64,000 nucleotides of DNA. Source: Bacteroidia bacterium. GTDB lineage: Bacteria > Bacteroidota > Bacteroidia > J057. The stretch covers positions 124,001-188,000 of the forward strand of contig JAUIGE010000006.1 of the NCBI GenBank assembly GCA_030430205.1. The letters run 5' to 3'. A program made the translations under genes and the position numbers. Below are positions 24,301 through 61,999 of the stretch, one piece after another. How positions within the stretch are numbered: position 1 is the stretch's first letter; each line of letters starts with the position of its first letter. The notes below the pieces were generated by a model. It had not been told where the DNA came from, did not search any database, and saw only the letters and a list, made by a program, of their open reading frames with translations.

Positions 24301-24432
24301 AGAATCAATATAGGAGACAAAGCTCTTCCAATCCATTGGCTCATCAACCTGAGCCAACAATTCAAGGGGAATTCCCAATAAAAAAATAGAAACCCAAAAG
24401 GCAATACCCAGCCTGACACTCCTGCTTTTCAT
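21259..24432 (-). CDS. TPR-CHAT protein, exported caspase-like protease candidate
   Basis: 1057 residues. An N-terminal signal peptide or anchor (RLGIAFWVSIFLLGIPLELLAQ) precedes a long run of tetratricopeptide repeats (about 100-450). A helical linker follows, then a CHAT (caspase HetF-associated with TPRs) domain with LHFAMHG (catalytic His about 874) and LSACNTGAG (catalytic Cys about 925). The end has one membrane segment (LYMLLAGGFLLMAFLLLFY) and a short basic tail. Predicted topology puts the TPRs and CHAT in the periplasm, anchored at the C terminus. Both catalytic residues are intact. The ATG at 24432 is used; the TTG at 24450 falls inside a promoter motif. The neighbouring sigma/anti-sigma pair suggests signalling. 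Confidence 0.88.
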   Translation of the reverse strand: MKSRSVRLGIAFWVSIFLLGIPLELLAQVDEPMDWKSFVSYIDSLQGKGKEQQAVFLLEEKEKAAIADCDWNLALECLFKYVRMVESKDPQLCYQKIVNSRWMASLIEGPSAGKAHYYQLLGENFLSQSYQIDSSIFFLNRAREDLFTLKIWDDFTYACDVIGINHVYSGKYQEAESWFLSALDSAQLHLDKDDSAIPTTLGLLVFLYSTTGDFDRSLFYSQKTLEVYEQMEKMSPVDSQYLGNLYNTMGSTFMEMEDFEQALAYFRRARYLASHNSELDQAAILVTSMNEGIVYWKLGQKENAQKLWMKILGKVQNKMTLDEVRLLFAVYSFLSEYALEQRDFEKAMDYLNKALALESADQQFRTAALREMGRVYMRQGKRKEAKMWYEKSLAMGKKTFQGRDIQISRVYLSLASFYAKEEEKLKALEYYQMAFEELSESFESTSLASQPRIDEVNDKVLFLSLLQGKADLCLKLYDEGKEQKWLNLSAQSFDLAMVLIDSIRADIRTEGSKIRFAEVAHRVYDGAIHVALKRFEKNHDQALLKAAFSFAEKNKGLSLREALQDSDAKQFAGISADLLAQENQLQKELSFYQKKIFDEQRAEEADSVKISFWQNKHFELRQAFSVLMKTLEKDYPEYYELKYKDHSVNAEKIMSSLEGEKAVIEFFWGEKDLTAFCLAADTIQVFTQAIDDAFINQIEAFRAILTQQPDQSLKAIGPNFQAFTQQSYKLFQLLLEPFVANRNISELLIIPDGMLGYLPFGVLLTEKPDPDAGMSYASLSYLFSSCQLRYEYAAAFLERDASQKKKKGKGLIGFAPSYQRGNSPEDWPPLVYNEQELQLISDQMDGQAYTNGQATKKRFLSEAAGYSVLHFAMHGFINDQNPLYSGLVFNRDPENEKESAPYSILHAYELYSLSLQAELAVLSACNTGAGKLLKGEGVMSMARAFRYAGCPSVVMSLWTADDRATTRIMEFFYIALGQGKTKDVAMKEARKAYLASTKRDHPYYWAGFVLIGEKEAISVHSSRNLYMLLAGGFLLMAFLLLFYRRQAIRRHRQQAVS

Positions 24433-24439
24433 ACATAAG

Positions 24440-24447
24440 CTAAAGTA
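24440..24447 (-). promoter_or_regulatory. Near-consensus -7 motif before the CHAT gene
   Basis: TACTTTAG on the minus strand (one mismatch to TAnnTTTG) ends 7 bp from the CHAT start codon, suggesting the gene can be transcribed apart from the small gene upstream. Confidence 0.35.
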
Positions 24448-24462
24448 CAAAAAGCCAGTTAA

Positions 24463-29500: not shown

Positions 29501-32500
29501 TCAGACTTCTTCAAGCTCTCCCAAACTTGTGTAGTAGATCACGCCCTTTCTTTCTGTGTATCCCATCTCCTCCAAAGCGTCCAAATAGGAATTGACCTGT
29601 TTTAAGTACACATCTTTTTTGTGTCCTGTTTTATAGTCAATCACTACCACTTTATTGTCCAATATATTTACACGGTCGGGGCGTAAGGTCTTCCCGGAGG
29701 CCGAGATGATCTCGGCTTCAGCCTTCACCTTCCAGTGAGACTGGAAATAGGGCGCTATCCCCTCAAAGGAAATCACTTCCTTGAGCATCTCTTCAAAGTT
29801 GCCCTGCAGGGAAGCAGGTAAAAAGCCTTTCATCACCATGCTGCGCGCGGCTTGGGGCACATCCTCCGGCACAACGATATGTGCCAGGGCCTCATGCAGC
29901 AATTCGCCCATCTGGATTTTCTCCTGCCGCTCCAGCATGCTGCTTTTGAGGTAGCGGTTGGAACTGTAGCGGATGTTCACCGCCTGATTCCAGCCGGCAA
30001 GGCTGCGCTTCGGGCCCTCCAGCACAGGAAGAGCGGCCTCTTTTGTATGGCCTTTTGGGGGAACGGCTTTGCCGTACATACGGATGTTGCCCTCCGCAGC
30101 GGCATCTGCTGCCAGCGGCATGGCATCCAGCACCTGCTGGATCACAGAAGAAGAGCGCTTGAGGTTTTCCTTTTTTTCATCCTCCGGGCAAAAAATATAC
30201 AGACGCAATTCCGGGCGGGTAAAGGCCACATAGAGCAAATTGAGGTTATCGAGATAACTCAGAAGCGTTTCCCGCTCATAAGCCTGCTCAAAATAGCTAT
30301 CCTTCAAAGCGCTGCTGTAATTGACCGGCAAAAAGGAAAACCGATTATAAGGCGCCCTGTCGGGCCTCACCCACAGCAGGCTGTTGGCTTTGGGCTCCAT
30401 GCCCCAATCTGCAAAAGGCAGCATCACCACCGGAAACTCCAGGCCTTTGGCCTTGTGAACCGTCATGACCTCCACCGCCTGGGAGCTGGAACTGGCCGGG
30501 ATAGCCGGTTTTTCCCTGATCTCTTCCCAATACGCCAGAAAGCCGCTGATGCTCGCTTCGTTTTTGCTGCCATATTCCAGGGCATGATCCAGAAATGCCT
30601 GCACATAGGCATTGTGGTCGAGGATATTTTCGAACAGCCTGATGAGGCGTTCCATGCACTCATAGACCGGCTGCTGACGCAGCATAGACAGCCTGCCTCT
30701 CAGCTCGCGCGGCAGGGCCGCGCCTTCTTTCCCGACAAAAAGGTCGTCGGGAACCTGGCTTTCCAGGCCCAGCGAAAGCTGCCCGGCAGCCTGCTTCAGT
30801 TGATGAAGCAAATGGTAGCCGTAGGCTACCCGGGCGCGGTACATCTTCTCCTCCTCATGGTTCAGGAGGCAGAGCAAAGCGTGCAAAAAGCGCACTTGCG
30901 GATGGTTGTTCAGTTTGAGGGACTCGGCAGAGGCCACCAGGATGCCATTTGCCTGCAAATGCTCGGAGATGTCCACGGCTTCGGCATTGGTGCGGACGAG
31001 CAGGCAGATGTCTGCCGGGCTGAAGCCTTCCCCGATCATTTCACGGATGCTTTCCAGGCAGCGCTCTTTGGCGCTTTCTTTCCACTTATCCTCCTTGCCG
31101 TTGGGCAGCAGTTCTACCTTGACAAGCCCATCCATGGCTTTTTTCGGATTCTGAGCTATCTGCTCATAGGCCGTAGCGATCACAGCCTTGCGGCTTTCGT
31201 TGTCGCCAAACTCCTGGAGGAGGAGCTCCACGGCCGTTTCGAAGAAATGGTTGTTGAAGGCTACGACCTGATGCGCTGTGCGGTAGTTGTCCAGCAACAG
31301 TTTGTTGGTGACGCCCTGCTTGCGGGCAAGCATTTCTTTCTCCACTTTATAGAGGAGCAGTTCCATATTGCCATTTCGCCAGCGATAAATAGATTGCTTG
31401 ACATCGCCCACGATCAGGCTGCCGTTGCCGGTACTCAGGGCTTCCAGCACCAGCGGGCGCAGGTTTTCCCACTGCATATCAGAGGTGTCCTGAAATTCGT
31501 CGATCAGGTAGTAGCGATAGCGCGTGCCGACCTTTTCATATATAAAAGGAGTATCCTGCTCGGAGACGATCTCGCGCAGCAGGTAATTGGTATCGGAGAT
31601 AACGAGGCGGTTGTTTTCGAGGCGGTAGTCGATGAGTTTGCTTTGCAAATCGTTCATCACGCCAAAGCTGTAGAGATTTTGGGCCGCGATGCGGGCGCTG
31701 TTGTAGCTGGTAAATTGCTGGTTGTAGTATTCAACCATTTGCTCCAGTATGCCATGCAGGCCTTCATCTACGGCTTGCTGGATGGTCGAGGCCAAAGGAC
31801 TTTTGGCGCTATACCATTCATTTTCTCCTGCTGCTGCCTTTTTTGCCCTTTCTTTTGGTTCAAAATCTTTTTTCTCTGTTACATTGAAAAAGTAGCCTAC
31901 TGCACCACTTCTTTTATATTTAAAATCATCTGCTGTCAGGTCAAACTGCCCGATGATCCGAATCGCAAGATCTGCCCATTCCTCCATCTGGTTTTCGAAC
32001 TTCTTTCGAATCTTCCAAAGCTCCTCTTCCAATCCGATCACATCCTCCAACTCTATGCTCACCTTCTCCTCATTGAAGGTCACCAGTTGTTCCTGAAATT
32101 GCTCTTTGAAAATTTCCCCCCCCAGCTCCTTGATTTTACTCTCAATGCGCCAGCCTTTGTCCTCCTCCATGCTGCGCTCCACCAGCTTTCGCAATACCTG
32201 GGTGAGTTTTTCATGTGTACCAATTTCCCGAAAAGTCTGCTGGGTGATGCGTTCCAAAACGATATCCTGCTTCATATCCACTTCATAGCCCAAAGGCAGG
32301 TTCAACTCCTTGGAAAAGGCACGGATCACGCGCTGAAAGAAGCTTTCAATGGTGCTGACAGAAAAATTGGAATAATCGCTCAGGATCAAATTGAGCACGG
32401 TACGGGCGCGTTGGGAAATATCGAAATGCAGGCCTTTGCCGGTAAAATACTTTTTCAGCATCTGAAACATATCCAGCTTTTCCAGCTCCTCCCCTTCCAG

Positions 32501-32689
32501 ATATGCCAAAGCCGAAAGCGCCCCAATGATGCGGGCCTTCATCTCTTCTGTGGCTTTATTGGTAAAAGTGATTGCCAGCACGGAGCGAAACTCCGCAGGC
32601 TCGCGAATGACAATTTTGAGGTATTCGGATACCAGGGTAAAAGTCTTCCCTGAGCCGGCAGATGATTTGTATTGGGTGAGTGCATTCAT
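29501..32689 (-). CDS. RecB/AddA-like UvrD-family helicase-nuclease
   Basis: 1062 residues. Superfamily 1 helicase motifs: Walker A SSAGSGKTFTL (9-19), motif Ia AITFTNKATEEMKAR, Walker B YLIDEFQDTSDMQWE, motif III GDVKQSIYRWRNG, motif V VEVMTVHKAKGLEFPVV, and motif VI LLYVAFTRPELRLYIF. The C-terminal 150 residues carry a PD-(D/E)XK nuclease of the RecB/AddA kind: RPDRVNIL, VVVIDYKTG, and QVNSYLDAL. It should process double-strand DNA ends for recombination. The AddB-type partner usually found beside it is absent from this window. It diverges from the flippase gene with only 28 bp between start codons. Confidence 0.92.
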   Translation of the reverse strand: MNALTQYKSSAGSGKTFTLVSEYLKIVIREPAEFRSVLAITFTNKATEEMKARIIGALSALAYLEGEELEKLDMFQMLKKYFTGKGLHFDISQRARTVLNLILSDYSNFSVSTIESFFQRVIRAFSKELNLPLGYEVDMKQDIVLERITQQTFREIGTHEKLTQVLRKLVERSMEEDKGWRIESKIKELGGEIFKEQFQEQLVTFNEEKVSIELEDVIGLEEELWKIRKKFENQMEEWADLAIRIIGQFDLTADDFKYKRSGAVGYFFNVTEKKDFEPKERAKKAAAGENEWYSAKSPLASTIQQAVDEGLHGILEQMVEYYNQQFTSYNSARIAAQNLYSFGVMNDLQSKLIDYRLENNRLVISDTNYLLREIVSEQDTPFIYEKVGTRYRYYLIDEFQDTSDMQWENLRPLVLEALSTGNGSLIVGDVKQSIYRWRNGNMELLLYKVEKEMLARKQGVTNKLLLDNYRTAHQVVAFNNHFFETAVELLLQEFGDNESRKAVIATAYEQIAQNPKKAMDGLVKVELLPNGKEDKWKESAKERCLESIREMIGEGFSPADICLLVRTNAEAVDISEHLQANGILVASAESLKLNNHPQVRFLHALLCLLNHEEEKMYRARVAYGYHLLHQLKQAAGQLSLGLESQVPDDLFVGKEGAALPRELRGRLSMLRQQPVYECMERLIRLFENILDHNAYVQAFLDHALEYGSKNEASISGFLAYWEEIREKPAIPASSSSQAVEVMTVHKAKGLEFPVVMLPFADWGMEPKANSLLWVRPDRAPYNRFSFLPVNYSSALKDSYFEQAYERETLLSYLDNLNLLYVAFTRPELRLYIFCPEDEKKENLKRSSSVIQQVLDAMPLAADAAAEGNIRMYGKAVPPKGHTKEAALPVLEGPKRSLAGWNQAVNIRYSSNRYLKSSMLERQEKIQMGELLHEALAHIVVPEDVPQAARSMVMKGFLPASLQGNFEEMLKEVISFEGIAPYFQSHWKVKAEAEIISASGKTLRPDRVNILDNKVVVIDYKTGHKKDVYLKQVNSYLDALEEMGYTERKGVIYYTSLGELEEV

Positions 32690-41127: not shown

Positions 41128-41667
41128 ATGTTTCGAAAATCCGTTTACTGCCTGTTTTTTCTATGTTTTTGGTTTACAGCCGGATATGGACAAAAACTGG
41201 AAATCAGTTACCAGCACATTCAGTTGGAAGGTGATGTCTGGGAAACAAAAGTTTTCATGCAGGCCCTTGCTGAAGACAGCATGATTATCCGTGCCGTCAA
41301 TTTCTCTTTTCTTGCGGACAAAAGCTGTGCTAGCTTCCAAAAGCGGAACGCTTTATTTCCGACCTACTGGTCCAAATTTTTGGAGCGGCAGGTGGAAATG
41401 GATTCCGTGGATATTCACATTGGCGAAAAATCATTCAATCATCGCTTGCTTTACCTGATCGCCGAGCCGATCGGCTTGCCAGGCACTGAAACGTTGAAAA
41501 TTCCTGGCTCTCAGGCAGAACCTCTTCAGGTGCTTTCTTTTATCTATAAAGGAACATGCGCAAACGCCATCATGATGGAAGACGAAGCGATGAATCCCAT
41601 CAACCAGATCGGTGACGAGGATATCAGGCCGGCGGCTTATAACCTGACATATCTTGGCGAAAAATAG
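41128..41667 (+). CDS. Small secreted hypothetical protein
   Basis: 179 residues. A signal peptide (MFRKSVYCLFFLCFWFTAGYGQ) precedes a mixed alpha/beta body with no family I recognise (KLEISYQHIQLEGDVWETKVFMQALAEDSM...). It resembles the conserved secreted proteins that sometimes precede T9SS cargo but has no sorting domain. The ATG at 41128 is chosen for the signal peptide. Its last 14 bp overlap the start of the glycosyltransferase gene, implying coupled translation. Confidence 0.65.
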   Translation: MFRKSVYCLFFLCFWFTAGYGQKLEISYQHIQLEGDVWETKVFMQALAEDSMIIRAVNFSFLADKSCASFQKRNALFPTYWSKFLERQVEMDSVDIHIGEKSFNHRLLYLIAEPIGLPGTETLKIPGSQAEPLQVLSFIYKGTCANAIMMEDEAMNPINQIGDEDIRPAAYNLTYLGEK

Positions 41668-43030
41668 CTCCCTGGCTTCGCTTTGGCGAAATCCCTATAA
41701 GCGCTTTTGGCTGCTGGCCATAGCGCTGCACGCGCTGTTTTTCGGCTACCAGCTGAGCCAGAGCAATTATTACCTGGCGGATTCCACGGAATACCTGCTC
41801 GCAGCAGAAAATCTGCTGGAACATGGCAGCCTCTATTGCGGCGAATGGCCGCCCGAGCGCATAGACTATTTCACCAAAAGACCCCCTCTTTATCCGCTCA
41901 TCCTGACAATATTTGTCGTCCCCTTTGGGTCGCCCATATTGTTGATTTTGCTGCAAAATCTCCTGGGGCTTTTCAATTTATTTCTCCTGCTCAAGCTGTT
42001 GAAAGGCTTTTCCTTTCCCGAGGAAAAATTGACATTTCTCCTTCCCTTTCTGCTGCTCTATCCCGCGCAGATGATCTACGCCAATTTCGTCATGACGGAA
42101 ATAGGGCTGCAAAGCCTGATCCTGGGGATGCTGTGGTTTTTGTGGAAATATGCCGAAAAACCTGCAGGAAAATACCTGCTGATTTACAGCGGATTGCTGT
42201 CATTGGCGATTTTGATGAAGCCTGTGATGTACCTCTTCGCAGCGGTCAATGTGCTGCTGATGGCCTGGTTTTTTCTCCGAAAAAAGCGATCTGCGGGCAT
42301 GATACCGGCAGCTTTGCTGCCTTGGGTGATCGTGGTCCTGGTCGGAGCCTGGAACCAGCAACGCACGGGCGTTTTCCATTATTCCAGCATACAGCAGATC
42401 AACCTGCTTCAGTACAACGCCTATTACAGCCTGGTGAATAGCGAAGGGCTGGAAGCCGCTGAGCAGCAGGTAAATGCGATCACAGATAGCGCGGACAACA
42501 TGGCATTTTACCCCGAAAGGCATGCTTTCATCCAGGCCTCATCTATAGCCATTCTCAAAAAACATCTGCCGGCTTACTTCAAGCTTCATATCAAGGGCAT
42601 GTTCAATTTTTTCATTGATCCGGGCAGATTTGATTTGTATAGTTTTTGGGGAATGGAGAAAAGGGAAGGCAAAGGCGAGGGCTTGCTGTATCATTATAGC
42701 CAATCGGGCTATCAGGGCATTTTTACTTACCTGGGCCAACAGCCCCTTTTGCTGCTGCTGTGGCTGTTGCTGATCGCTGCTGCCAACGGCATCAAGTTTC
42801 TGGCAGCTATTCGTTTTGCTTTTTTGAAAAGCATTTCGCTGGAAAAGCGCCTGCTGCTTTTGCTCTTTGTGGGTTATCTGGCCGGGATCACCGGCCCATT
42901 GGGAGCGAGCCGCTTTGCGGTGCCTCTCTTTCCGCTGATGCTGCTGATGCTGGCGCTTACTTGCCAGCAGGACTGGCCGCGGGTGCAGGCGATTCTGCGC
43001 CGCCTTTCATTTGGTCGAAAAAAGCTGTAA
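41654..43030 (+). CDS. GT-C glycosyltransferase (ArnT/PMT-like)
   Basis: 458 residues with about ten membrane helices. After the first helix comes ADSTEYLLAAENLLEHGSLY, the loop with the acidic catalytic residue of the dolichyl-phosphate-mannose/ArnT superfamily, then FTKRPPLYPLILTIF. It should transfer a sugar from a polyprenyl-phosphate donor at the periplasmic face. The TTG start at 41654 overlaps the preceding gene; there is no ATG before the first helix. The 3' end overlaps the convergent hypothetical gene by 74 bp. Confidence 0.75.
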   Translation: MAKNSSLASLWRNPYKRFWLLAIALHALFFGYQLSQSNYYLADSTEYLLAAENLLEHGSLYCGEWPPERIDYFTKRPPLYPLILTIFVVPFGSPILLILLQNLLGLFNLFLLLKLLKGFSFPEEKLTFLLPFLLLYPAQMIYANFVMTEIGLQSLILGMLWFLWKYAEKPAGKYLLIYSGLLSLAILMKPVMYLFAAVNVLLMAWFFLRKKRSAGMIPAALLPWVIVVLVGAWNQQRTGVFHYSSIQQINLLQYNAYYSLVNSEGLEAAEQQVNAITDSADNMAFYPERHAFIQASSIAILKKHLPAYFKLHIKGMFNFFIDPGRFDLYSFWGMEKREGKGEGLLYHYSQSGYQGIFTYLGQQPLLLLLWLLLIAAANGIKFLAAIRFAFLKSISLEKRLLLLLFVGYLAGITGPLGASRFAVPLFPLMLLMLALTCQQDWPRVQAILRRLSFGRKKL

Positions 43031-44225
43031 CCAGCTTTTGCACCATCTGATGCAGTTCTTCATCTCCCAACATCAGGTTGAGCTGCGCAAAGGGTTTTTC
43101 ATCCAGAAAATCCAGGCTTAGCTGACAATTTTGCCCCGTCACAACCTGCGTAACATCTACGGTTACCTGCCTGATTTCCAGGGGTTTTTCTTTAAATATT
43201 TTTTCCAACTGATAAAAACTCAAGCCCGTATAGGCCTGGTTTTTCATGGTATAGATGGTCGCTACCGGCGGCACCTGGAAGAGGTACAAATGCACCAGGC
43301 GTTTGAAAAAGGCAGCGAAAGCTTCCATGGAAAAAGCGGATTTCTCAAAAGGAATTTTCAGCATACGCACGGCCATGGCGTCATCCGACGGCTCCACAGA
43401 CAGGCGATCCCAGATCAATGAGTTGATTTCGTCCACAATGGTCCCCGGCGCATGGATTTCCACCTCTCCATTGGTGCCTTGCTCCAGGGGATGAAAGGAC
43501 AGCATCAGGTCAATCCAATGGCCTTCGCGGTTGGAGGCGTAGAGAAAAAGCGCCATCAGCGTATGTCGCCGCTGGTTAAACATATAGCGCATTTCTTCAC
43601 GCTGAATATCAAAATAGTAGTCGCCATCGGTTGTCTCAAGCTGTGCGTGAAACGAACGATAGTCCATGTATTTATCGGACAATTCATCCAGCAAAGCCAG
43701 CAGTTCATAAATGGAAATCTTTCGGCTGTAAAAAAAATGGTCATTGAGGGTGACATAGCTTTTGCGAAAAGCATTGATGGGCGGGGTGAAGGTCAGTTTG
43801 GGGACCAAAGGCTGTGCACCGATCTGCTCGGTGGTCAGGCCGACTTTCCTGCCCGGTCGCTCGGGTATCTTCAGGCCGAGTAAAACGGCCTTGATGACGG
43901 CATTTTCATGTGCATCGCCTATGGCGATGACAAATTGGCCGCGGCCTTTGTTCTGCGGATCGAAGTGGATATGTACGCGCATCACGCGTATATCTGGCGT
44001 GGTTACAGCCGTGGAAATCGTTTTTATTTCCCCCTGATGCCTTTCGTAATGCGAAAGCAACTCGGCATGTGTCAGGCCATAAAATGTCTCCCCACTTTGG
44101 GTGGTCAGGTAGGCGTGAAAGGGAGCCTGGTTCAAATAGGATTTGCTGATCTCTTCCAGACGGGAAATCAGCAGTTGGAGGGGGATTTGGGTACCAAAAA
44201 GGAAGCGACCATAAAGAGGGCCCAT
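42957..44225 (-). CDS. Unrecognised protein made of three copies of one domain
   Basis: 422 residues, no family recognised and no signal peptide. Three stretches can be aligned by eye: about 8-118, 163-278 and 293-402. Each opens with an aromatic (FLFGTQIP, FFYSRKIS, FEKSAFSM), then an amphipathic helix LL..LEE/LLDEL/FFKRL, a Tyr, a strand pair (FHAYLTTQSGETFYG, FHAQLETTDGDYYFD, VATIYTMKNQAYTGL), a helix, and a strand with [IV]xxxFxP/FxD. Repeats 1 and 2 are the most alike. The tail is Ala/Pro-rich and encoded in the overlap with the glycosyltransferase gene. A 10-bp inverted repeat covers the start codon. Confidence 0.7.
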   Translation of the reverse strand: MGPLYGRFLFGTQIPLQLLISRLEEISKSYLNQAPFHAYLTTQSGETFYGLTHAELLSHYERHQGEIKTISTAVTTPDIRVMRVHIHFDPQNKGRGQFVIAIGDAHENAVIKAVLLGLKIPERPGRKVGLTTEQIGAQPLVPKLTFTPPINAFRKSYVTLNDHFFYSRKISIYELLALLDELSDKYMDYRSFHAQLETTDGDYYFDIQREEMRYMFNQRRHTLMALFLYASNREGHWIDLMLSFHPLEQGTNGEVEIHAPGTIVDEINSLIWDRLSVEPSDDAMAVRMLKIPFEKSAFSMEAFAAFFKRLVHLYLFQVPPVATIYTMKNQAYTGLSFYQLEKIFKEKPLEIRQVTVDVTQVVTGQNCQLSLDFLDEKPFAQLNLMLGDEELHQMVQKLVTAFFDQMKGGAESPAPAASPAGK

Positions 44226-44319: not shown

Positions 44320-44655
44320 TCACTTTCGTTCGAAACCCAGATTTTTCAATTTTTTCTCAAAATCCTCCGATGCCCGCAGCTCCACATTTCGCCCGGAAGG
44401 GCAGCTACACGCCTCACAATGGATCAATCCATCATAAGCAGAAAAGGCAAGGCTGACTACGTCAACTCCCTCATCCGAGAGGTAGTCCTCGATCAATTGT
44501 CGTAAGGCCGCGTCATCCTGGTTATTGCCCCAGGGATCAGCGCATTGGGTTTCGGCATAGAGATAGTCTACCATGCTGCCATCTGTCTTTTGGCAGGCGG
44601 AGAAGGCGAGCAGGCCGATGAGGCTGAGCAGGGGGATTAGATGTGTTGTTTTCAT
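44320..44655 (-). CDS. Small lipoprotein
   Basis: 111 residues. Signal peptide with lipobox LAFSAC (Cys21, MKTTHLIPLLSLIGLLAFSAC). The mature part has paired Cys (TQCADPWG, HCEACSCPSG). LRQLIEDYLSDEGVDVVSLAFSAYDGLIHCEAC looks like a compact alpha/beta domain. Not recognised; likely anchored in the envelope. It sits between two unrelated genes. Confidence 0.75.
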   Translation of the reverse strand: MKTTHLIPLLSLIGLLAFSACQKTDGSMVDYLYAETQCADPWGNNQDDAALRQLIEDYLSDEGVDVVSLAFSAYDGLIHCEACSCPSGRNVELRASEDFEKKLKNLGFERK

Positions 44656-44779: not shown

Positions 44780-46351
44780 ATGAAAAAATACCCCATTGGC
44801 ATTCAGGATTACCAAGAAATTTGTACTGGTGGTTATCTGTATATCGATAAAACCGAATCTATTTACAAATTGATTGAAAGTGGTAAATATTTTTTCCTAT
44901 CCCGGCCTCGCCGCTTTGGCAAGTCGCTATTACTTTCTACCCTAAAATACTTTTTCCAGGGAAAAAAAGAGCTATTCCAAGGCTTGTGGGTAGATAAAAA
45001 TACCAGCCATGATTGGAAAGAATTTCCCGTTCTTCACTTTTCTTTTAGCAGCTTAAGCTACAAGGATATTGGCCTGGAAAGAGCCCTTCAGCAAGCCTTG
45101 AATCTTCAGGCTGAACATTTTGGAATTGAATTGAAGAGGGAAGGCCTGGGGCAACGATTTCAGGAGTTGATCAAACATTTGGGTAATGGAGACCAAAAAT
45201 TGGTGATCCTCATTGACGAATACGACAAGCCTATCATTGATTATATTGACAAGTACGAACAAGCAGAAGAAAACCGTGATACCTTGAAAAACTTTTTTTC
45301 TGTTATCAAGGATTGTGATCCCTATTTGCGCTTTTTTTTCATCACGGGCGTCTCCAAGTTTAGCAAAGTTTCACTCTTTTCAGATTTGAATCACCTCCGC
45401 GATCTGACCATTTTGGACCAATATGCAGAGTTGGCTGGCTATACCCAGGCAGAATTGGACTTGTATTTTGATGATGATCTGGAGAGGATGGCGGTAGCAA
45501 AAGGGCAAAGCAAAGAACAAATGCGTGAAACCATCAAAAGATGGTATAATGGATATAAATGGGGGAAAGAAGCTTCTACCCCTAGGTTATACAATCCCTT
45601 TTCTATCCTCAATTGCTTTGCTTCAGATCAAATAAACAACTATTGGTGGGAGACGGGCACGCCCACTTTTTTAATGCGGATGCTTCGTAAAAACATGGAT
45701 TTCAAGCTCGATGAGCTGGAAGTCGGGGGTGCCAGTTTTGAAAGTTATACCCTGGACAACCTGGAATCGACTCCACTCCTCTTTCAGACGGGTTACCTAA
45801 CCATCAAAGATTATGATGATGAAAATCGGCTTTTCACATTGGGATTTCCCAATATGGAAGTGAAAGAAGCTTTTCTTCAACACTTATTGGCTGCTTATAG
45901 AGAGACGGGCTCTTCTTTGAGTTATTCGCTTTTTATTCGCCTGAAGAAAACACTTCAAAAAGGAGATTTGAAGTCATTCATTGAAGTTGTAAATCAGCTG
46001 TTTGCTACCATTCCCTACCAGATTTTCATCTCAGACAAAGAGGCATTTTTCCACGCTATCCTCCATTTGAGCTTCTCCGGACTCGGTTTGGTAGCACAAT
46101 CGGAGGTCAGTACTTCCCGTGGTCGTGTGGATACAATTGTGCACCTGGAAGATCGGATTTACATACTGGAATTTAAACTCGATGAATCGGCAGAAGCTGC
46201 CCTGGCCCAAATCAGGCAAAAAGCTTATGGCACCCCTTTTCTTTCCCAGGGAAAAGAAGTGATTGCAATGGGTATCAGCTTTTCTTCTGAGACGAAAAGT
46301 GTAGCTGATTGGCAGGATATGCCCTATATCGAACTTCTGGCAGAAGGCTAA
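44780..46351 (+). CDS. AAA-ATPase-like protein with PD-(D/E)XK nuclease domain
   Basis: 523 residues of the widespread 'AAA-ATPase-like plus PDDEXK_9' family, common in multiple copies in Bacteroidota. The start YPIGIQDYQEICTGGYLYIDKT is diagnostic. Then come Walker A SRPRRFGKSLLLST (about 41-54), Walker B LVILIDEYDKPIID, and ITGVSKFSKVSLFSDLNHL. Near the C terminus the nuclease fold appears as GRVDTIVHLEDRIYILEFKLDESAEAALAQIRQKAY (D...E-x-K). The cellular role is not established; defence or mobile-element roles have been proposed for relatives. Base composition looks more AT-rich than neighbouring genes, compatible with acquisition. It stands alone. Confidence 0.88.
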   Translation: MKKYPIGIQDYQEICTGGYLYIDKTESIYKLIESGKYFFLSRPRRFGKSLLLSTLKYFFQGKKELFQGLWVDKNTSHDWKEFPVLHFSFSSLSYKDIGLERALQQALNLQAEHFGIELKREGLGQRFQELIKHLGNGDQKLVILIDEYDKPIIDYIDKYEQAEENRDTLKNFFSVIKDCDPYLRFFFITGVSKFSKVSLFSDLNHLRDLTILDQYAELAGYTQAELDLYFDDDLERMAVAKGQSKEQMRETIKRWYNGYKWGKEASTPRLYNPFSILNCFASDQINNYWWETGTPTFLMRMLRKNMDFKLDELEVGGASFESYTLDNLESTPLLFQTGYLTIKDYDDENRLFTLGFPNMEVKEAFLQHLLAAYRETGSSLSYSLFIRLKKTLQKGDLKSFIEVVNQLFATIPYQIFISDKEAFFHAILHLSFSGLGLVAQSEVSTSRGRVDTIVHLEDRIYILEFKLDESAEAALAQIRQKAYGTPFLSQGKEVIAMGISFSSETKSVADWQDMPYIELLAEG

Positions 46352-53324: not shown

Positions 53325-53368
53325 AATAGGTTTACTAAACGTTGAGGTTTGGTAAACCTATTTTTTTT
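53325..53368. terminator. Bidirectional terminator between dnaK and the T9SS genes
   Basis: AATAGGTTTACTAAAC (53325-53340) and GTTTGGTAAACCTATT (53347-53362) form a 16-bp stem with one mismatched or wobble pair and a 6-nt loop. T8 follows on the plus strand and GAAAAA precedes it, so it serves dnaK best and possibly both sides. Confidence 0.88.
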
Positions 53369-56363
53369 ACCGGATCAGGGTCATCGTTCCCTGCAAATGG
53401 CTGACGGTATTCACATCCGTAAAGTAGCTCAGCGTATAGACATACACCCCTTCCGGGCAGCTCTGCCCTTTAAAAGTCCCGTCCCAGCCTGGAAAAGGAT
53501 TTTCACTTTGGTACACCCTCTCTCCCCATCTGTTATAAATCGTCAATTCATAACGGATGATTTCCGGTCTGAAGGAAGGGCCAAAAAAATCATTTATCCC
53601 ATCTGAATTGGGGGAAAATGCCGAAGGCATAAATACCAACGGACTGCAATTGCTCATGCGAGCCTGCGTTGAAGCAGAAGAGGTACAGCCGTGAATGTCC
53701 GTGACTTCCAGTGAATATACCCCCGCAGAATCCACCCAGCGGATTCCCTCATCCCAACCATCCATCCAGCTATAGCTGCGAAAACTATCGCTGCGCGCAT
53801 CCAGGGGACTGGCTTTTTCCCGACAATAAATCAACTCCCCGGGAAGGCTTAGCTGAATCGCGTCATATTGGAGAATGCGAATTTCTCCCTGCTTTTCGCA
53901 GCCGTTTTCATCCATGGTGTGAAGTTGGAAGATGCCTTCTTCTTCAAACAAACGCTCAGCTCCCTCCGGGCCGTCGGCCCAGAGATAGAAGGCAATGCCT
54001 TCAGTAGTGGCGTCTACTTGCAGGCTTTCGCCTGTGCAGAGGCTGTCCTGCGCCTGCAGCGCGAGGGGCGGTGTGTCGGGATAGTGGAGTACCTCCACGG
54101 TATCGCGGCCTATGCAGCCGAGGGCGTCTTTGGCTTCGAGGATGAAGCGGCCCGCCGCTTGAAAATTGCGCATAGCGCCCTGGGGGCCGTCGGCCCATTG
54201 ATAGCCGGCGTAGCCGGCGGTGCTGGCATCTATGCGGGTACTTTCTCCTTTACAAAAGAAAAGTGAATCGGTTATTCCCAATTTGACTGGCGGGAGCATA
54301 CTGATTTCTACACTATCTCTGAAGACCCTGCCACAACTGTCCTCCACTTCCACCCAGTACAAACCCGCTGCTGACAACAGCAACCTTTCAGCTGTACTTC
54401 CATCATTCCAGCGGATGCTCCCCTCTCCTTTTTGGGCTGACAGCCACAGACTCCCCCCCGCACAGAGGGCGGTATCCGGGCCCAAATCGGGCATGTATAG
54501 CAAGGGCTTGTCCCTGATTTCGATGGTGTCGCTGTTGATACAGCCCCAGATGCTGTCGGTCAGCTGCAGCCAATAGCTGCCTGTCTGGCGGATGACCACT
54601 TTCGGCTCTATACTTCCATCAAACCACAAAAGGTGGCTGCCTTGCAGATGACCCATATCCAGGATCATCGAATCCCTGCACAGACCCCGGGCAGGGCCGA
54701 GCTCCACAGTTGGAAGGGGCTTCACGTCTATCGTCAGGGTATCATAATATTTGCCGCAAGCATTTTCCAATATGCCGATGATGTCGATCGGGCCTGCCTG
54801 CTGTGGGCTGAAATAGAGGGTATCACCATGCTGTACATGGGTGGTATCGCCCAGGATGCTATAGCTAAAACCGTAGGTTCCGATGGTACAATGCGGCCAA
54901 ACGCGGATTTCTTCCCCCAGGCAGGGCGTTGATTTACTGACTTTGATTTTCAGGCGATCATTGGTGTAGCGCCCAGTGATATAGGTCGGTAGGTTTTGGC
55001 TGCGGAAATAAAAATTATTGGGGTACATCACGCCCTGTAGCGTGAAGTTGCAGCCGATTCCCGGCACATTGGGGAAACTGATGTAGGCCAAAAATGAGGA
55101 AGAAGAATTGACAATATAAATGCGCCCATCAGGCCCCAACTCCATCCTATAGCCAAAAAAATTGCCTACCAGCCCTCCTGTATTTATCACTGTAGCAGAA
55201 TTCAGGACATGGGAGGGCACGGGCACAGATAAATCCAATTGCACAATGCGGCCAAAAATATCGGAGAGGTACAACAGTTGGTTGTTGCTGGAAAACTCCA
55301 TCCCCAAAGTCAATAAATTTTGCAGGGGTGTCATATCCGCAAAAAACTGAAATTGCCCGTTTTGATTATCAAATTCATTCAAGGTTAAGCCCGCAGTCAT
55401 CCAGCGGCCATCATGTGAAAACTTTATCAAATAGGGCTCTGTAGGGACAGGAGTCGTATTCAGAGGCCCCTGCACCCCCTGATCTGTTATCAAAAAGGAT
55501 TTGATGTTGAATTGGTTGCCCGGTTGCATTATCGTTCTCACACCTGCGAGCAACCAAACATCTTTGCCATTCGCATGATAAACAGCATCCATGTTTTCCA
55601 TATTGGTCACGGTCACCAGGATGTTTTTTTGAAAAGGAACAACATCTCCCAGGCCACCAGCCAGCCGCATATCAATCTTGCTATAGCGCAAACCATTGAG
55701 GTTTTGATTTTCGAGCGCATCGAGGGTGAACAGATAATACACCTCCGGATCAGCAGGATCCGGAAATGCCAGACTTCCCTGTCGGGTGGAGTAATGCCCC
55801 AATATCCCTCTTCCATTAGGCATGACCTGGTGGTTTTTGTTCCAGATGGTGGTGCCATTGGTATAAAAAAGCAAATTGCCTGCGTCATCACTCATCGTGA
55901 CACTGGATTCAATAAAGGAACCCGATCCCCCCACCCAGGACTGCCCTGTCAGTTTTCCTGCCACGTAGCAACTCACAGGCGCTGTGTGAAAATCCAGCAT
56001 AAGGCTGTCTTCCATCTCCCAATACATCTTTTGATTTTCATCATACTCCCCGCAGCCTCCTACAGTCAGTGTCCAAATAGCAGACGTATCCTGGCAATTG
56101 CCATTATTCACGATGAGTTGAATCTGGTAGCTTCCCTTTTGGGTAGGCTGAAATGAAAAGCTGGGATTGGCTCCGCTTACCACGCCATCTACTATCCATT
56201 GATAGCCCATAGACCCGGCAGGTCCTGTGAGAAAAAGTACATCATTGGGCATGAGGAAGTTTTTCCAACCGCTGATTTGTGCAGGCGGGTTACAGCCCGT
56301 TTGAGATTTTGCACAAAAAAGAAAAGCGATCAAAAAAACCCATAGCAGCCCCGTTTTTTTCAT
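53367..56363 (-). CDS. Large T9SS type B (gliding-motility C-terminal) cargo protein, paralog 2
   Basis: About 998 residues. The signal peptide (MKKTGLLWVFLIAFLFCAKSQ) is followed by a PKD-like domain (CNPPAQISGWKNFLMPND). A six-to-seven-blade propeller-like region (about 115-465, with TNGTTIWNKNHQVMPNG and FSHDGRWMTAGL) comes next, then a chain of Ig-like units with repeated 'PLPTVELG', 'WNDGSTAERLLLSAAGLYWVEVEDSCG' and 'QVDATTEGIAFYLWADGPEG'. The C terminus FMPSAFSPNSDGIND...GQSCPEGVYVYTLSYF is the type B (CHU_C) sorting domain. It is 1 to 13 bp downstream of its paralog. Likely a cell-surface or secreted adhesin. Confidence 0.85.
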   Translation of the reverse strand: MKKTGLLWVFLIAFLFCAKSQTGCNPPAQISGWKNFLMPNDVLFLTGPAGSMGYQWIVDGVVSGANPSFSFQPTQKGSYQIQLIVNNGNCQDTSAIWTLTVGGCGEYDENQKMYWEMEDSLMLDFHTAPVSCYVAGKLTGQSWVGGSGSFIESSVTMSDDAGNLLFYTNGTTIWNKNHQVMPNGRGILGHYSTRQGSLAFPDPADPEVYYLFTLDALENQNLNGLRYSKIDMRLAGGLGDVVPFQKNILVTVTNMENMDAVYHANGKDVWLLAGVRTIMQPGNQFNIKSFLITDQGVQGPLNTTPVPTEPYLIKFSHDGRWMTAGLTLNEFDNQNGQFQFFADMTPLQNLLTLGMEFSSNNQLLYLSDIFGRIVQLDLSVPVPSHVLNSATVINTGGLVGNFFGYRMELGPDGRIYIVNSSSSFLAYISFPNVPGIGCNFTLQGVMYPNNFYFRSQNLPTYITGRYTNDRLKIKVSKSTPCLGEEIRVWPHCTIGTYGFSYSILGDTTHVQHGDTLYFSPQQAGPIDIIGILENACGKYYDTLTIDVKPLPTVELGPARGLCRDSMILDMGHLQGSHLLWFDGSIEPKVVIRQTGSYWLQLTDSIWGCINSDTIEIRDKPLLYMPDLGPDTALCAGGSLWLSAQKGEGSIRWNDGSTAERLLLSAAGLYWVEVEDSCGRVFRDSVEISMLPPVKLGITDSLFFCKGESTRIDASTAGYAGYQWADGPQGAMRNFQAAGRFILEAKDALGCIGRDTVEVLHYPDTPPLALQAQDSLCTGESLQVDATTEGIAFYLWADGPEGAERLFEEEGIFQLHTMDENGCEKQGEIRILQYDAIQLSLPGELIYCREKASPLDARSDSFRSYSWMDGWDEGIRWVDSAGVYSLEVTDIHGCTSSASTQARMSNCSPLVFMPSAFSPNSDGINDFFGPSFRPEIIRYELTIYNRWGERVYQSENPFPGWDGTFKGQSCPEGVYVYTLSYFTDVNTVSHLQGTMTLIR

Positions 56364-56376
56364 GCTAAAAGCCATT

Positions 56377-59300
56377 TTATCGAATCAAAGTTACTGTACC
56401 TTGACGGTGGCTAACTGACGGCATATCAGTGTAATAGGTCAAGGAATACACATAGACACCCTCCGGACAACTCTGGCCTTTGTACTTCCCATCCCAGCCA
56501 GGAAATGGGTCCTGGCTTTGGAAAACAACTGTGCCCCACCGGTCAAATATCCGCAGATCGTAGCCTCTAATCCCTTCCTGCCAGGAAGGCCCGAAATAAT
56601 CGTTGATGCCGTCGGCATTGGGTGTAAATGCCGATGGCATGAAAGAGAGAGGACGGCATACAGAAAAACGAACTTCTGCGAAAGCCTCCGAAAAACAATG
56701 ATGGATGTCCTCCATCCGAACGCTATACCTGCCCGCCGAATCTACTTCGCGGACAGGCGCTGTCAAACCATCATGCCATAAATAGGCCAAAAAGCTGTCA
56801 GATCTCAGATCTATGGTCGCGGGTTCATTTTTACAAAAGAAATAGATGTCCGGAATGTCCAGGCTGATGGCTTCAAAGCTGCGGATCAGGATTTCCGCCT
56901 CCGTCGGACAACCCTGCTTGTCCAGGGCCATGAGGGTATATTTTCCCGCTTCGCGGATGTTTCTGACGGGATTTTCCGGGCCATCGGCCCAGCTGTAGAA
57001 GGCTATGCCTTCCGTGGTCGCATCTAGCCGAAGGCTCTCTCCCTTGCAGAGAGAATCTATCTTTGCGAGCTGCAAAACCGGTGGATCCGCATGCTGGATG
57101 ACATCCAGCGTATCGAGAAAGATGCAGCCTGCATTGTCTTTTGTTTCTACCACAAAATGCCCTGGCGAATTGAAAGTGCGGACATTTCCCTGAAATCCGT
57201 CATCCCAGTTATACCCGCTCAAAGCCGGAGACCCCACATCTATGCTTACTTCTTCTTTTGGGCAAAAGAAAAGCGAATCTACCAGCGCCCGGGAGGCAGG
57301 CAGCTTTATTTCTACAAAAATGCTATCTCTCATGCGATGCCCACAACTATCGCTGACCTCTACCCAATAGAGGCCTGTACTTGCCGCAAGCATGGCTTCG
57401 GCGCTGCTGCCATCCTGCCAACGAAGCTTCCCTTCGCCTTTTTGGGCTTGCAAAAGCAAGCTTCCCCCCGCACATAAGGAAGTATCTGAGCCCAGCTCAG
57501 GCATAAATAAAAGCGGTTTGGCGAGGATATGGATGCTATCTGAGGCGGTGCAGCCCATCTGGGCTTCGGTAAACTGAAGCCAGTAAGTTCCTGTCGTTTT
57601 TATCTGAAAAAAAGGCTGTCTGCTGTTGTCGGACCACAAAAATTGTCCTGGCTGCAGCTGCCGCATATCCAGCAGCAGGGAGTCATTGCAAAGGGCCTGG
57701 TCCGGGCCGAGATCAAATCCCGGCAATGGCTGTACATCCACCCACAGGGTGTCCTCATAGATGCCGCAGGCATTTTCCAATCTGCCGATAATCGCCAGGC
57801 GACCTGGCTGGGTTGGCGTAAAATGAATCAGGGTATCACCTGACATCTCATGGGTGCTGTCGCCCGCGATATGGTAGGAAAAGCCGTAAGTCCCGATGGT
57901 ATATTCAGGCCATACCCTGATGCTGTCACCCACACAGGGCGTGGAGTCATGGGTGGTGATTTTCAGGCGTTTATTGGTGTAGCGCCCACTCAGGTAGGTG
58001 GGCAGGCTCCAGCTTTTCCAGGCGGGATGTCGGGGCAAGGCAATGCCGTTCAGCACATAGTTGGCACCAGGTCCCTGCTGGTTGGGGTTATCGATATAGG
58101 CCATCGCACTGCTTAAGCGATGGGTTGCATAGATTTTGTCATCTGGACCCAATTCCAGCCTGGCCGCATATACGGGCGGCGGGAAGGTCAAACTCTGGTA
58201 CACAGGGGTAGCAGATTGGAGAATGCCCGAGGGATTACCCGAGCTCAAATCCAATTGCATCACAGTAGAAATGCCCAATATAAAGTACAGCTTGCTGTTA
58301 TCGGAGGAAAACTCTATCGCGCTGGGATAAGGAAAGACCACAGATGACAAATCCATAAAGTACTGGAGCTGCCCTGTTTGATTATCAAAGTGAAATAAAG
58401 TCTTGCTCGCCACGAACCATTTCCCATCATGGGAAAACTTCAAAAAGCCTGGGAATATAGGGCTGTTATTGATTTGTAATGGATAATGAGTAGGTGAGGA
58501 TACGCCTGATTCAGAAATCAAATAGGTCTGGAGTTCATAATCATTGGCAAGGAAGGAGTCTTTGGCAGCTGCCACAAGCCACACATCACGCCCGTTGGCG
58601 TGGTAGGTAGCATCCATATTTTCTGTGTTGGTGGTATCCAACAGTATGTTTTTGCTCGTCGCTACCACATCTCCCAGCCCGCCGCGCAGGCGCATATCAA
58701 TGAGCGAATAACGCAAGCCATTGGCATAGAGGTTTTCCCCCGCATCCAGCGTAAAAATGTAATAACGAGCTATATGAGCCGGATCGGGAAATGCCAGAAC
58801 TCCTTCCATGGAAGAAAAATGTCCCATCAGGCCTGTCCCATTGGGCATGAGCTGGTGGTTTTTATCCCAAACCAAATTGCCATTCGAAGAAAACAGCAAC
58901 TCGCCCACATCATCACACATGCTGGCGCTTGCTTCCAAATATGCCCCCCGGTAAAAGGGTCCGGGCAGGACCATTCCATGCATACCACCACCCCGCGTAT
59001 AGTTGGGCCCGCCGGGCAGAAAATCAAATATCATGCTGTCTTCCAGCACCCAGATCATCTTTTGATTTTGGTCATATTCCCCACAACCGGCTACCTGTAG
59101 CTCACGCATATCTGAGGTATCCTGGCAACTTCCATTGTCGACGATAAGCTGGATAAAATAACTGCCTCTCTGCGGGGACTGGAAGGAAAAAGTCGCATTG
59201 GTTCCTCGCGGAAAGCCATTCACAAACCATTGGTAGCCAAGGGCGCCCGCAGGTCCGCTCAGGATGAGGATGTGATTGGGGAATAAGAAATTTTTCCAAC

Positions 59301-59400
59301 CGCTGATGGTAGCGGGGGGGCTACAGGCCTGGACATTTTTTGCTAAACTAAAAGCACATAGCAAAATGCCAAGCTTAAGAAGCAAGTGGATTCTTTCCAT
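56377..59400 (-). CDS. Large T9SS type B cargo protein, paralog 1
   Basis: About 1007 residues, the same architecture as the next gene: signal peptide (MERIHLLLKLGILLCAFSLAKNVQA), PKD-like CSPPATISGWKNFLFPNHI, propeller-like region (SSNGNLVWDKNHQLMPNG, FSHDGKWFVASK), Ig-like chain (WQDGSSAEAMLAASTGLYWVEVSDSCG, RLDATTEGIAFYSWADGPEN), and the type B end FMPSAFTPNADGINDYFGPS...GQSCPEGVYVYSLTYY. The start at 59400 begins the signal peptide; upstream Met codons are rejected. It is followed almost without a gap by the paralog, so both arose by tandem duplication and are probably cotranscribed. Confidence 0.85.
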   Translation of the reverse strand: MERIHLLLKLGILLCAFSLAKNVQACSPPATISGWKNFLFPNHILILSGPAGALGYQWFVNGFPRGTNATFSFQSPQRGSYFIQLIVDNGSCQDTSDMRELQVAGCGEYDQNQKMIWVLEDSMIFDFLPGGPNYTRGGGMHGMVLPGPFYRGAYLEASASMCDDVGELLFSSNGNLVWDKNHQLMPNGTGLMGHFSSMEGVLAFPDPAHIARYYIFTLDAGENLYANGLRYSLIDMRLRGGLGDVVATSKNILLDTTNTENMDATYHANGRDVWLVAAAKDSFLANDYELQTYLISESGVSSPTHYPLQINNSPIFPGFLKFSHDGKWFVASKTLFHFDNQTGQLQYFMDLSSVVFPYPSAIEFSSDNSKLYFILGISTVMQLDLSSGNPSGILQSATPVYQSLTFPPPVYAARLELGPDDKIYATHRLSSAMAYIDNPNQQGPGANYVLNGIALPRHPAWKSWSLPTYLSGRYTNKRLKITTHDSTPCVGDSIRVWPEYTIGTYGFSYHIAGDSTHEMSGDTLIHFTPTQPGRLAIIGRLENACGIYEDTLWVDVQPLPGFDLGPDQALCNDSLLLDMRQLQPGQFLWSDNSRQPFFQIKTTGTYWLQFTEAQMGCTASDSIHILAKPLLFMPELGSDTSLCAGGSLLLQAQKGEGKLRWQDGSSAEAMLAASTGLYWVEVSDSCGHRMRDSIFVEIKLPASRALVDSLFFCPKEEVSIDVGSPALSGYNWDDGFQGNVRTFNSPGHFVVETKDNAGCIFLDTLDVIQHADPPVLQLAKIDSLCKGESLRLDATTEGIAFYSWADGPENPVRNIREAGKYTLMALDKQGCPTEAEILIRSFEAISLDIPDIYFFCKNEPATIDLRSDSFLAYLWHDGLTAPVREVDSAGRYSVRMEDIHHCFSEAFAEVRFSVCRPLSFMPSAFTPNADGINDYFGPSWQEGIRGYDLRIFDRWGTVVFQSQDPFPGWDGKYKGQSCPEGVYVYSLTYYTDMPSVSHRQGTVTLIR

Positions 59401-59443
59401 ATCACAAGCAATAAGAGCAATAGGAAAGATATACATTTTAAAC

Positions 59444-61999
59444 TTATTTCTTTACCCAACTTTTGGTAATAACCTCATCCCCTAACCTTAGGGTGATGAT
59501 ATATATGCCATTCGAAAGGGAAATCGTAGGGATTTCAAAATTGAAATCCTCTGATTGTTTTTCAACTTGTCTGGAAAAAATATACTCTCCTTGCAGGTTT
59601 ATCATAGATATCTGGCATATTCCTTTTTGGATGCTTTTGAATTTTATCCTACAAAATTCTCTTCCTGGGTTTGGGAAAACCATCAATTCGAAATTCGACT
59701 CAGAAGGGAATTCAATATCTGTAAGGTCACCATCCTTATTTAGCTTAAGCAGAAAAAACTGGGTACTGCCTGCAAAAGTATGAGTGCCTGAAATAGCAAA
59801 TCCACCATCTGGAGTGGTTGAGACTTTGTCGACAAAATTTGAAAAGAGAAGTTTATGCTTTTTTAGCCAGACCTCACTCCCCTGATTATCAACCTTTTGT
59901 ATCGCCAGAGACATCGTTGTATTCAGGCTGCCATAAAAGGGTATGGGTTCATCTATTCGCCCAACTGAAACCAAGCCTCCATCAATCGCTTCAGTAATAG
60001 AATAGAAAGCGCTACGAGACTCTGTGCTATCGCCAAAGGTTTTTTCCCAAATAGCATTCCCAGAGCTATCTGTTTTCACCAAATAATTTCGATCTACGGT
60101 ATTCTGAGCATTGATATTGGTACCTGTAATCGCAAAACCACCATCTTGTGTCTGGGTAACTGACCAGGATGCTGTCCTTGATGCCCTTCCTCCATCTTTA
60201 TTAAAACTTTTCTCCCAAATCACATCTCCATCTTTATCAAGCCTTAACAGAACCAATTCAAAATTAGATCCTATTCTTGCCATGCCGCCGGCAATAAATC
60301 CGCCATCTGTGGTAGCTGAAATACTATGTAACCGAACCTCTGTCGCATTAAGGCTTTGTAACCTATATGTTTTGTACCAAAGAACAGAATCACTTCCGTT
60401 GATTTTAAAGACTTGTCCAAACTTGGAAGCTGAAGTGGAAGAAATGACATAATTATTATCATTTGTAGACACCATTTCATAATACAACCAGGAAATAGCT
60501 GGAATTGAGTTTGAGCTTAACAGATTCCCTGTTGCATCCACTGTCAGAATTTGAAAAGGAGTAACATTGAAAGTCCCTCCTATTTTACCTAAAATTTTAT
60601 ACCCCCCCTGATGGGAGTTTACGGAACTCAGTCTGATGTCCCAATCCCTAAATGTGTCGACTTTTGTTGCCCATTGTTCTTGTCCCAGAGCATCTGTTTT
60701 TACCAAATAAATCCGTTTCCCTACTTCCCCCTCTTCACTCGTTCCTGATAGGAGAAAGCCTTTATCTATCGCTTGTAGGTGATCAAAACAAGAGTAGGTG
60801 GCAGCAGAATCAATTATGCCATAAAAATTTTCAGATGTTCGTACGCCATTCATGTCGATGGTTCCAAGAACTGCATCAGCAGAACCCTTTTTAGTTGATC
60901 CTCCTGAAAATTTTATGGAAGAAGGATAGGCAATAAAATCAGTAGGGAAAATATACTCGGTGCCCATATATCCATCATATATCTCATGGATAACCTGTCC
61001 GGTGGTATCTACTTCAAAAAATCCATGTTGACTTCCAAAGTTCCAAAGCATGAGGGTGAAACTGGAATCTGAGGTAATCTTTACTTGCTTGAAAAATGTA
61101 TTATTCCCAAATGACCCATTGGACAAATTCACCATTTTTGTTGTTTCAACTACACCACCTTGACTGATTTTAAGCATCAATTGCTCACTATTTGAGTTTA
61201 AGGTTGGCGTAAAAAAATAGATTTTCTTATCTGGTCCTTCTATTAATTCAAAAGTGCCATTTGTTGAAATCGTATTTGTATTCAGCTCATAATTATTTAA
61301 AATATTACCTAGCGAGTCCAGTAAGTAAAACCAATCCTTTCTATCTTGAGGTACCACTGCGGCATAATTCCCATTGGAGAGTTTACAGGAAGTAAAACCA
61401 CGAGGCGAACCCTTTTCAGGATAGCGTTTTTCCCAAACGATATCTCCTGCAGAATCCAGTTCCCAAAGAGCAAGGCTATTCACAGTTGTGTCATTAGCAC
61501 CTTTTATGCCTATTAACACAATCCCATCATTAGAAGTGGGATAACCATTATATACCTCTTCTGCAAAATATCCTCCGATCACTTTTTGCCAAATCACATT
61601 ACCACTGGTATCAATACAACTAATTGTAATATCCTTAAATATGTCGTCAAGAGGCTTACTATTGCTTAGCAAGAAATACTTATCGTTGTTACCCTTGACT
61701 ATTTCAATCGAAATATCATCCCCATGAACATCAAAGGATTTTGTCCAAATCTCCTTCCCATCCTTGTCCGTCCGGATCAGGAATAAATCCTGGTCATATC
61801 CACCTGCTTTATAATTCCTCCCAAGAATCATATAGCCCCCGTTGAATGCTTCAACAAACGAATTTGCTCCCTCATTGACGCTACCTTTACCATAGGTCTT
61901 GAAAAAGGAAGTAGACTGGGCACTGCTTAAAAAGCATGAGAATAAAAGAATGATAACTCCTAAAATGGAGATTGAATTTTTGAGTTTGAATGATTTCAT
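59444..61999 (-). CDS. Secreted propeller-repeat protein with T9SS type A domain
   Basis: 851 residues. A signal peptide (MKSFKLKNSISILGVIILLFSCFLSSAQ) is followed by many repeats of the form 'GGxxIxGxxx...DxxLxKTDxxGxxIWxKxFG' (for example DGGFAITGTNINAQ...YLVKTDSSGNAIWEKTFGD), a beta-propeller pattern. The C-terminal 80 residues (LMVFPNPGREFCRIKF...SLSNGIYIITLRLGDEVITKSWVKK) form a T9SS type A domain. The nucleotide sequence is noticeably more AT-rich than the T9SS genes beside it, which may mark a separate origin. Function unknown, extracellular. Confidence 0.82.
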   Translation of the reverse strand: MKSFKLKNSISILGVIILLFSCFLSSAQSTSFFKTYGKGSVNEGANSFVEAFNGGYMILGRNYKAGGYDQDLFLIRTDKDGKEIWTKSFDVHGDDISIEIVKGNNDKYFLLSNSKPLDDIFKDITISCIDTSGNVIWQKVIGGYFAEEVYNGYPTSNDGIVLIGIKGANDTTVNSLALWELDSAGDIVWEKRYPEKGSPRGFTSCKLSNGNYAAVVPQDRKDWFYLLDSLGNILNNYELNTNTISTNGTFELIEGPDKKIYFFTPTLNSNSEQLMLKISQGGVVETTKMVNLSNGSFGNNTFFKQVKITSDSSFTLMLWNFGSQHGFFEVDTTGQVIHEIYDGYMGTEYIFPTDFIAYPSSIKFSGGSTKKGSADAVLGTIDMNGVRTSENFYGIIDSAATYSCFDHLQAIDKGFLLSGTSEEGEVGKRIYLVKTDALGQEQWATKVDTFRDWDIRLSSVNSHQGGYKILGKIGGTFNVTPFQILTVDATGNLLSSNSIPAISWLYYEMVSTNDNNYVISSTSASKFGQVFKINGSDSVLWYKTYRLQSLNATEVRLHSISATTDGGFIAGGMARIGSNFELVLLRLDKDGDVIWEKSFNKDGGRASRTASWSVTQTQDGGFAITGTNINAQNTVDRNYLVKTDSSGNAIWEKTFGDSTESRSAFYSITEAIDGGLVSVGRIDEPIPFYGSLNTTMSLAIQKVDNQGSEVWLKKHKLLFSNFVDKVSTTPDGGFAISGTHTFAGSTQFFLLKLNKDGDLTDIEFPSESNFELMVFPNPGREFCRIKFKSIQKGICQISMINLQGEYIFSRQVEKQSEDFNFEIPTISLSNGIYIITLRLGDEVITKSWVKK

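Follow-up and report, generated by a model that had tools for sequence, protein, structure and literature searches.

A three-unit protein with an undescribed repeat domain in a Bacteroidia bacterium and the likely loss of its presumably dead effector-like domain

Gene content of the locus

The window, a 64,000-nucleotide stretch of a Bacteroidia bacterium contig, encodes a protein of three similar units, whose gene overlaps a convergent membrane-protein gene (Table 1). The start codon of its open reading frame agrees with the aligned starts of relatives, and by eye the sequence has no obvious signal peptide, which fits the intracellular location proposed in the initial annotation.

Table 1. 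Position of the three-unit gene, its parts and its neighbours in the window
Feature	Position	Strand	Remarks
Three-unit protein gene	42957..44225	-	422 aa, without C-terminal domain
Unit 1	43866..44219	-	Residues 3-120; from unit profiles and alignments
Linker 1	43758..43865	-	Residues 121-156; length and sequence vary in the family (alignment)
Unit 2	43398..43757	-	Residues 157-276; 72% identity to same-genus ortholog
Unit 3	43014..43364	-	Residues 288-404; from unit profiles and alignments
Short tail and stop	42957..43013	-	Relatives run on here into linker and C-terminal DNPH1/NDT-like domain; overlaps convergent gene
Convergent membrane-protein gene	41654..43030	+	458 aa; no Pfam match at E 1e-5; 74-base overlap with three-unit gene
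Small lipoprotein-like gene, upstream	44320..44655	-	Syntenic in same-genus genome

Several other genes of the window were recorded. Adjoining the three-unit locus is a gene for an AAA-ATPase_like and PDDEXK_9 protein (44780-46351, +). A TPR-CHAT protein (21259-24450, -) is encoded near a 1925-aa open reading frame (15094-20871, +) that had no Pfam match at E 1e-5, and three neighbouring genes (53367-61999, -) encode large proteins with type IX secretion tails, two of them CHU_C and one Por_Secre_tail. The strand opposite a UvrD-type helicase gene (29501-32689, -) contains a 933-aa open frame (29852-32653, +), probably as an effect of codon usage.

Sequence evidence for three homologous units

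For each of the three units (residues 1-122, 155-278 and 286-405), a profile was built from 13 family members; these profiles matched one another nearly end to end, with E-values of 5.3e-16 for units 1 and 2 (score 90.5), 1.3e-13 for units 1 and 3 (77.7) and 7.9e-14 for units 2 and 3 (78.8). The maxima reached by 100 column-shuffled profiles per pair were 17.9, 17.2 and 19.1, respectively, and reversed profiles scored 12.7-16.1. These profile-profile matches bear out the proposal of the initial annotation that one domain is present three times, as homologous units of about 115-120 aa each. When the window sequence was taken by itself, the pairs of unit 1 with units 2 and 3 scored above all 1000 residue shuffles, and 316 of 1000 shuffles reached the real score of units 2 and 3, so that relatives are required to link these two units.

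The window protein and the 11 relatives whose N-terminus is complete have the three units in a fixed order. In the window protein, unit 1 shares 30-54% identity with its counterparts in the relatives and 16-24% with any unit 2 or 3; thus, the triplication predates the spread of the family. The motif that had been described as shared by the units turned out to be only partly general. The tyrosine after the first helix is found in all three (Y30, Y186, Y314), whereas the FHAxLxT-like segment is present in units 1 and 2 (FHAYLTT, FHAQLETT) and not in unit 3 (VATIYT), and the same holds for the FxP strand (FDP and FHP, with FLD in unit 3). No Pfam, NCBIfam or PADLOC model matched the window protein at its cut-off, in agreement with the earlier remark that no known family came to mind, and the repeat domain is undescribed in the libraries searched.

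Predicted structure of the units

The AlphaFold2 model of the window protein, made from four sequences, is of moderate quality (mean pLDDT 63.6, pTM 0.39). The predicted order of elements is β-α-β-β-α-β-β-β-α in all three units, unit 2 being the least confident, so that the three unrelated folds that would have spoken against a repeat did not occur. Averaged over 38 units, hydropathy alternates along the strands, a pattern that would fit a sheet covered on mostly one face.

The search of solved structures with a profile of the 38-unit alignment gave two chance matches only (E 0.035 and 0.5). In Foldseek searches with the window model, eight of the nine matches with E <= 0.001 were Fuzzy-Inturned or Mon1-Ccz1 chains, at a probability of 0.25-0.57 and TM <= 0.15. 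In VIA, the SZT2 domain led with Z 10.2 over 113 residues, followed by KA1 and DynU16 at 7.3 and others, on a scale where models that lack a clear match often reach Z 7-8. Mon1-Ccz1, Fuzzy-Inturned and the SZT2 domain are all presumably of the longin type; among the literature matches listed there was no structure paper on the SZT2 fold. This likeness, which covers most of the low-E matches, is offset by their low probability and TM and was not repeated with the model of a full-length relative (L033; pLDDT 65.1, pTM 0.32): its leading matches were to a polyketide synthase region (TM <= 0.16), and one Mon1-Ccz1 chain fell under 0.001, with a probability of 0.33. An MglB-type system was also considered and got no support; Roadblock/LC7 (PF03259) had no match in the window protein or in 13 genomes.

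With the window model, Foldseek gave RnlA chain 6y2r_B a probability of 0.90 (E 5.9e-3), and other RnlA entries 0.60-0.82. RnlA, the RNase LS toxin of Escherichia coli, has two tandem N-terminal domains ahead of its effector, according to the excerpted text of PMC5308261, and the likeness would concern this NTD-NRD part, with a TBP-like unit fold that comes from a moderate model and mixed matches. However, VIA aligned two units only, at Z 6.8 and an rmsd of about 14 A, no HEPN domain was matched when the window protein and 10 relatives were scanned with Pfam, and the C-terminal domain of the relatives is predicted to have a DNPH1 fold. A viral structure library returned three mixed matches at E <= 0.001, two TATA-binding proteins (probability 0.28 and 0.18) and an RNaseLS-like protein (0.60), which are too weak for fold assignment. 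TBP-like, KA1-like and longin-like folds are therefore kept as leads suggested by the models, none of them assigned.

The C-terminal domain of the relatives

The open frames of relatives from the same GTDB family are 543-633 aa long, the shortest ending at a contig edge, and all 12 relatives examined carry a further C-terminal domain (C-domain); the window protein stops where the linker to that domain starts. The initial annotation had recognised the repeat and missed that the window copy is a truncated form. In the model of L033 the C-domain resembles DNPH1 (8rps; Z 15.7, 2.4 A over 121 residues), a nucleoside deoxyribosyltransferase (NDT; 7o62, Z 14.4) and the TIR domain of SPARTA (8qlo; Z 13.7, 121 aligned), and the domain is predicted to have a DNPH1/nucleoside-deoxyribosyltransferase/TIR-like fold.

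Profile comparisons point in the same direction. The C-domain profile reaches RCL with E 5.4e-5, and the NDT family of Pfam (PF05014) matches 11 of the 12 C-domains at E <= 1 (best E 0.0012), although its best score among 10 proteins, 16.9 bits, is below the cut-off of 28.8. The relatives also differ from DNPH1 and NDT in the absence of the catalytic glutamate (12 of 12), and the window copy in the absence of the whole domain. The PADLOC model of a CBASS TIR effector (PDLC00733) matched five of 10 proteins, which were nine relatives and the window protein, over a partial stretch with E from 4.7e-5 to 0.024; it had no match in the window protein. This likeness to TIR effectors, in predicted fold and in PADLOC matches, would not imply NADase activity; unlike them, the relatives have a replaced glutamate site and no defence partner gene seen by eye at their loci.

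Replacement of the catalytic glutamate

In human DNPH1, E104 forms the glycosyl-enzyme bond, as stated in the excerpted text of PMC10603095. The aligned site holds no glutamate in any of 12 family members (Lys in six, Gln in three, Arg, Ile and Ala in one each), whereas glutamate is present in 30 of 30 aligned matches outside the family, in 29 loci fetched from elsewhere in the phylum, these 30 being the best-scoring ones of a longer list. As judged from these alignments, the C-domain of all sampled relatives has lost the catalytic glutamate, and we infer that it would have lost catalytic activity as well. The Asp corresponding to D80 of DNPH1 was considered as a second lost residue and dropped: the outside matches also lack it (Ile in 24, Val in 6 of 30).

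The glutamate-bearing NDT-like proteins of the phylum (L077-L105) have a C-domain homologous to that of the relatives, but follow other N-terminal parts. For 16 of the 30 matches the N-terminal part was compared with the repeat unit, and none contained it, the best hhalign match having E 0.0041 and a probability of 8%. C-domain matches at E <= 1e-6 occur in 62 of 296 phylum genomes, the window's own genome included. Among the literature matches listed, none dealt with a dead NDT/TIR-like domain joined to such a module, which is no proof that there is no such paper. One of the outside loci, L092, encodes two NDT-like domains next to each other, which lie in different frames and each have the catalytic glutamate.

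Distribution and gene neighbourhood

A family member was found in nine of 13 genomes of the GTDB family. Matches in a search of 60 relatives (nine) and of 395 genomes drawn from the class (seven) all belong to that GTDB family, and a scan of genome contigs with a profile of five closer members gave three loci, each from a Bacteroidetes or Bacteroidia MAG. The unit search of 296 phylum genomes gave a match at E <= 0.1 in 14, the best outside the own genome being 0.0039, and five of the 13 rows outside the own genome cross stop codons. Plasmids and phages (tblastn, E <= 0.01) and the viral contigs searched gave no match.

The neighbours, named by eye, recur only within paralog groups. A multiheme cytochrome-like gene lies downstream in L052, L053 and L055; in L049 and L050 a RecX-like gene is found upstream, and a D-Ala ligase-like gene lies further downstream; in L045 and L047 a large hydrolase-like gene accompanies one for a secreted-looking protein of 271-274 aa; and L046 shares the setting of the window. 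Since no operon partner is common to the 11 loci read, the neighbourhood names no pathway. Upstream of one relative (L048, 2160-3407) is a gene whose product looks by eye like an HD domain with a PycTM-like membrane domain.

Decay and loss of the C-terminal domain

In the tree, the window copy groups with L003, L005 and L006 (support 100/98). Against a profile of the glutamate-bearing matches, the C-domains of these three score 64, 54 and 47 bits, respectively, and those of the nine other members 93-108. Comparison of all 66 pairs among the 12 relatives showed a C-domain more identical than the repeat in 35 of 36 pairs outside the clade, in eight of 27 mixed pairs and in none of three within it. 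By these alignments, the C-domain has drifted in the clade of the window copy, where it appears as lower conservation.

The ortholog in a genome of the same genus retains the C-domain. It is 52% identical to the window protein overall (54%, 72% and 41% in units 1, 2 and 3) and lies in the same gene order, with genes for permeases, a small secreted protein and a membrane protein on one side and the small lipoprotein-like gene on the other. The three-unit and membrane genes are separated by 223 bases in the ortholog locus and overlap by 74 bases in the window, where the membrane protein is 13 residues longer at its C-terminus. A tblastn search with the C-domain of the ortholog found no trace of it near the window gene (best E 0.052, at 31 kb). 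Synteny with an ortholog that keeps the domain makes it likely that a deletion removed the C-domain in the window species, and a deletion would also explain the overlap of the genes and the 13-residue tail of the neighbour.

Interpretation

The main result is the likely loss of an effector-like domain that had presumably been dead already. The explanation that we prefer, at a probability of about 0.5, is that the window protein is a three-unit binding scaffold derived from a sensor-plus-enzyme ancestor, which became catalytically dead and, in this copy, then lost its enzyme domain. The ancestor would probably have carried a three-unit recognition module ahead of a DNPH1/nucleoside-deoxyribosyltransferase-like domain, whose former substrate may have been a nucleotide or nucleoside, which it would by now at most bind. 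In the excerpted text of PMC3710099 it is proposed that modules N-terminal to NDT and other effector domains act as target sensors, and this role would suit the ancestor. Loss of the catalytic glutamate in the family would have been followed by drift of the dead domain in the clade of the window copy and by its deletion in the window species, leaving the module alone. The three copies of one undescribed alpha/beta domain might then form a cytoplasmic binding module, the partner of which could be a protein, a nucleic acid or a nucleotide. The scaffold suggested earlier is reasonable as a fair guess, binding being the default reading for a non-enzyme.

That the module may still bind a partner is suggested by its open frame, by the 72% identity of unit 2 to the ortholog and by an ordinary rate of change, the window branch being no faster in relative-rate tests with 10 of 11 outgroups. 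This argument is weakened because one outgroup disagrees, over the 5% line and with the window faster (chi-square 4.08; a second outgroup gave 3.16), the outgroups are not independent, and the signals include the time before the deletion. The same data bear on the alternative that the copy is a remnant which, after deletion of its 3' third, now drifts without function while a paralog does the work. The domain it lacks is kept by 12 relatives, its end overlaps the convergent gene, and a 574-aa full-length copy exists elsewhere in the genome, but this paralog is only 28% identical and on a separate tree branch. Against a remnant also stand 422 codons without a stop and differences at the three codon positions of 0.364, 0.269 and 0.593, although frame, identity and rate are all weak arguments if the deletion is recent, and we consider a remnant rather unlikely.

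Still less probable is that the relatives are active immune-type effectors that use another catalytic residue, with the repeat as an infection sensor. The fold shared with DNPH1 and SPARTA TIR domains, the PADLOC matches and the sensor role proposed for N-terminal modules would agree with it; however, the glutamate is lost in all 12, the genes are chromosomal and have group-specific neighbours, plasmids and phages gave no match, and the family is conserved and vertically placed instead of scattered. We regard it as quite improbable that the gene is really full length and its C-domain was lost in assembly. Although the assembly is a draft in 80 contigs, the site lies inside a 225-kb contig, the frames of both genes are unbroken at the junction, and the C-domain profile gives just two matches elsewhere in the genome, the paralog and a weak one (E 0.06). 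The closed pseudo-three-fold ring suggested earlier would fit exactly three units in fixed order in members with a complete N-terminus, yet we regard it as very improbable: at a pTM of 0.39 the model does not fix how the units pack, and the linker between units 1 and 2, which has 36 residues here and varies in the family, does not point to a tight ring.

A binding scaffold left by a dead enzyme might be placed, tentatively, in a wider frame: a domesticated immune-type protein, in which a sensor-plus-NDT/TIR-like effector became a non-enzymatic adaptor that one bacterial family inherits vertically and that carries a tandem recognition domain of a new kind, with the dead, decaying and deleted stages of the effector visible side by side. 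The locus adds an undescribed tandem domain and a case in which an enzyme domain related to immune effectors would have lost its catalytic residue across a lineage, drifted in one clade and been dropped in one species, the recognition part staying in place. This series of dead, decaying and deleted domains opens the question of what role the recognition module may play by itself.
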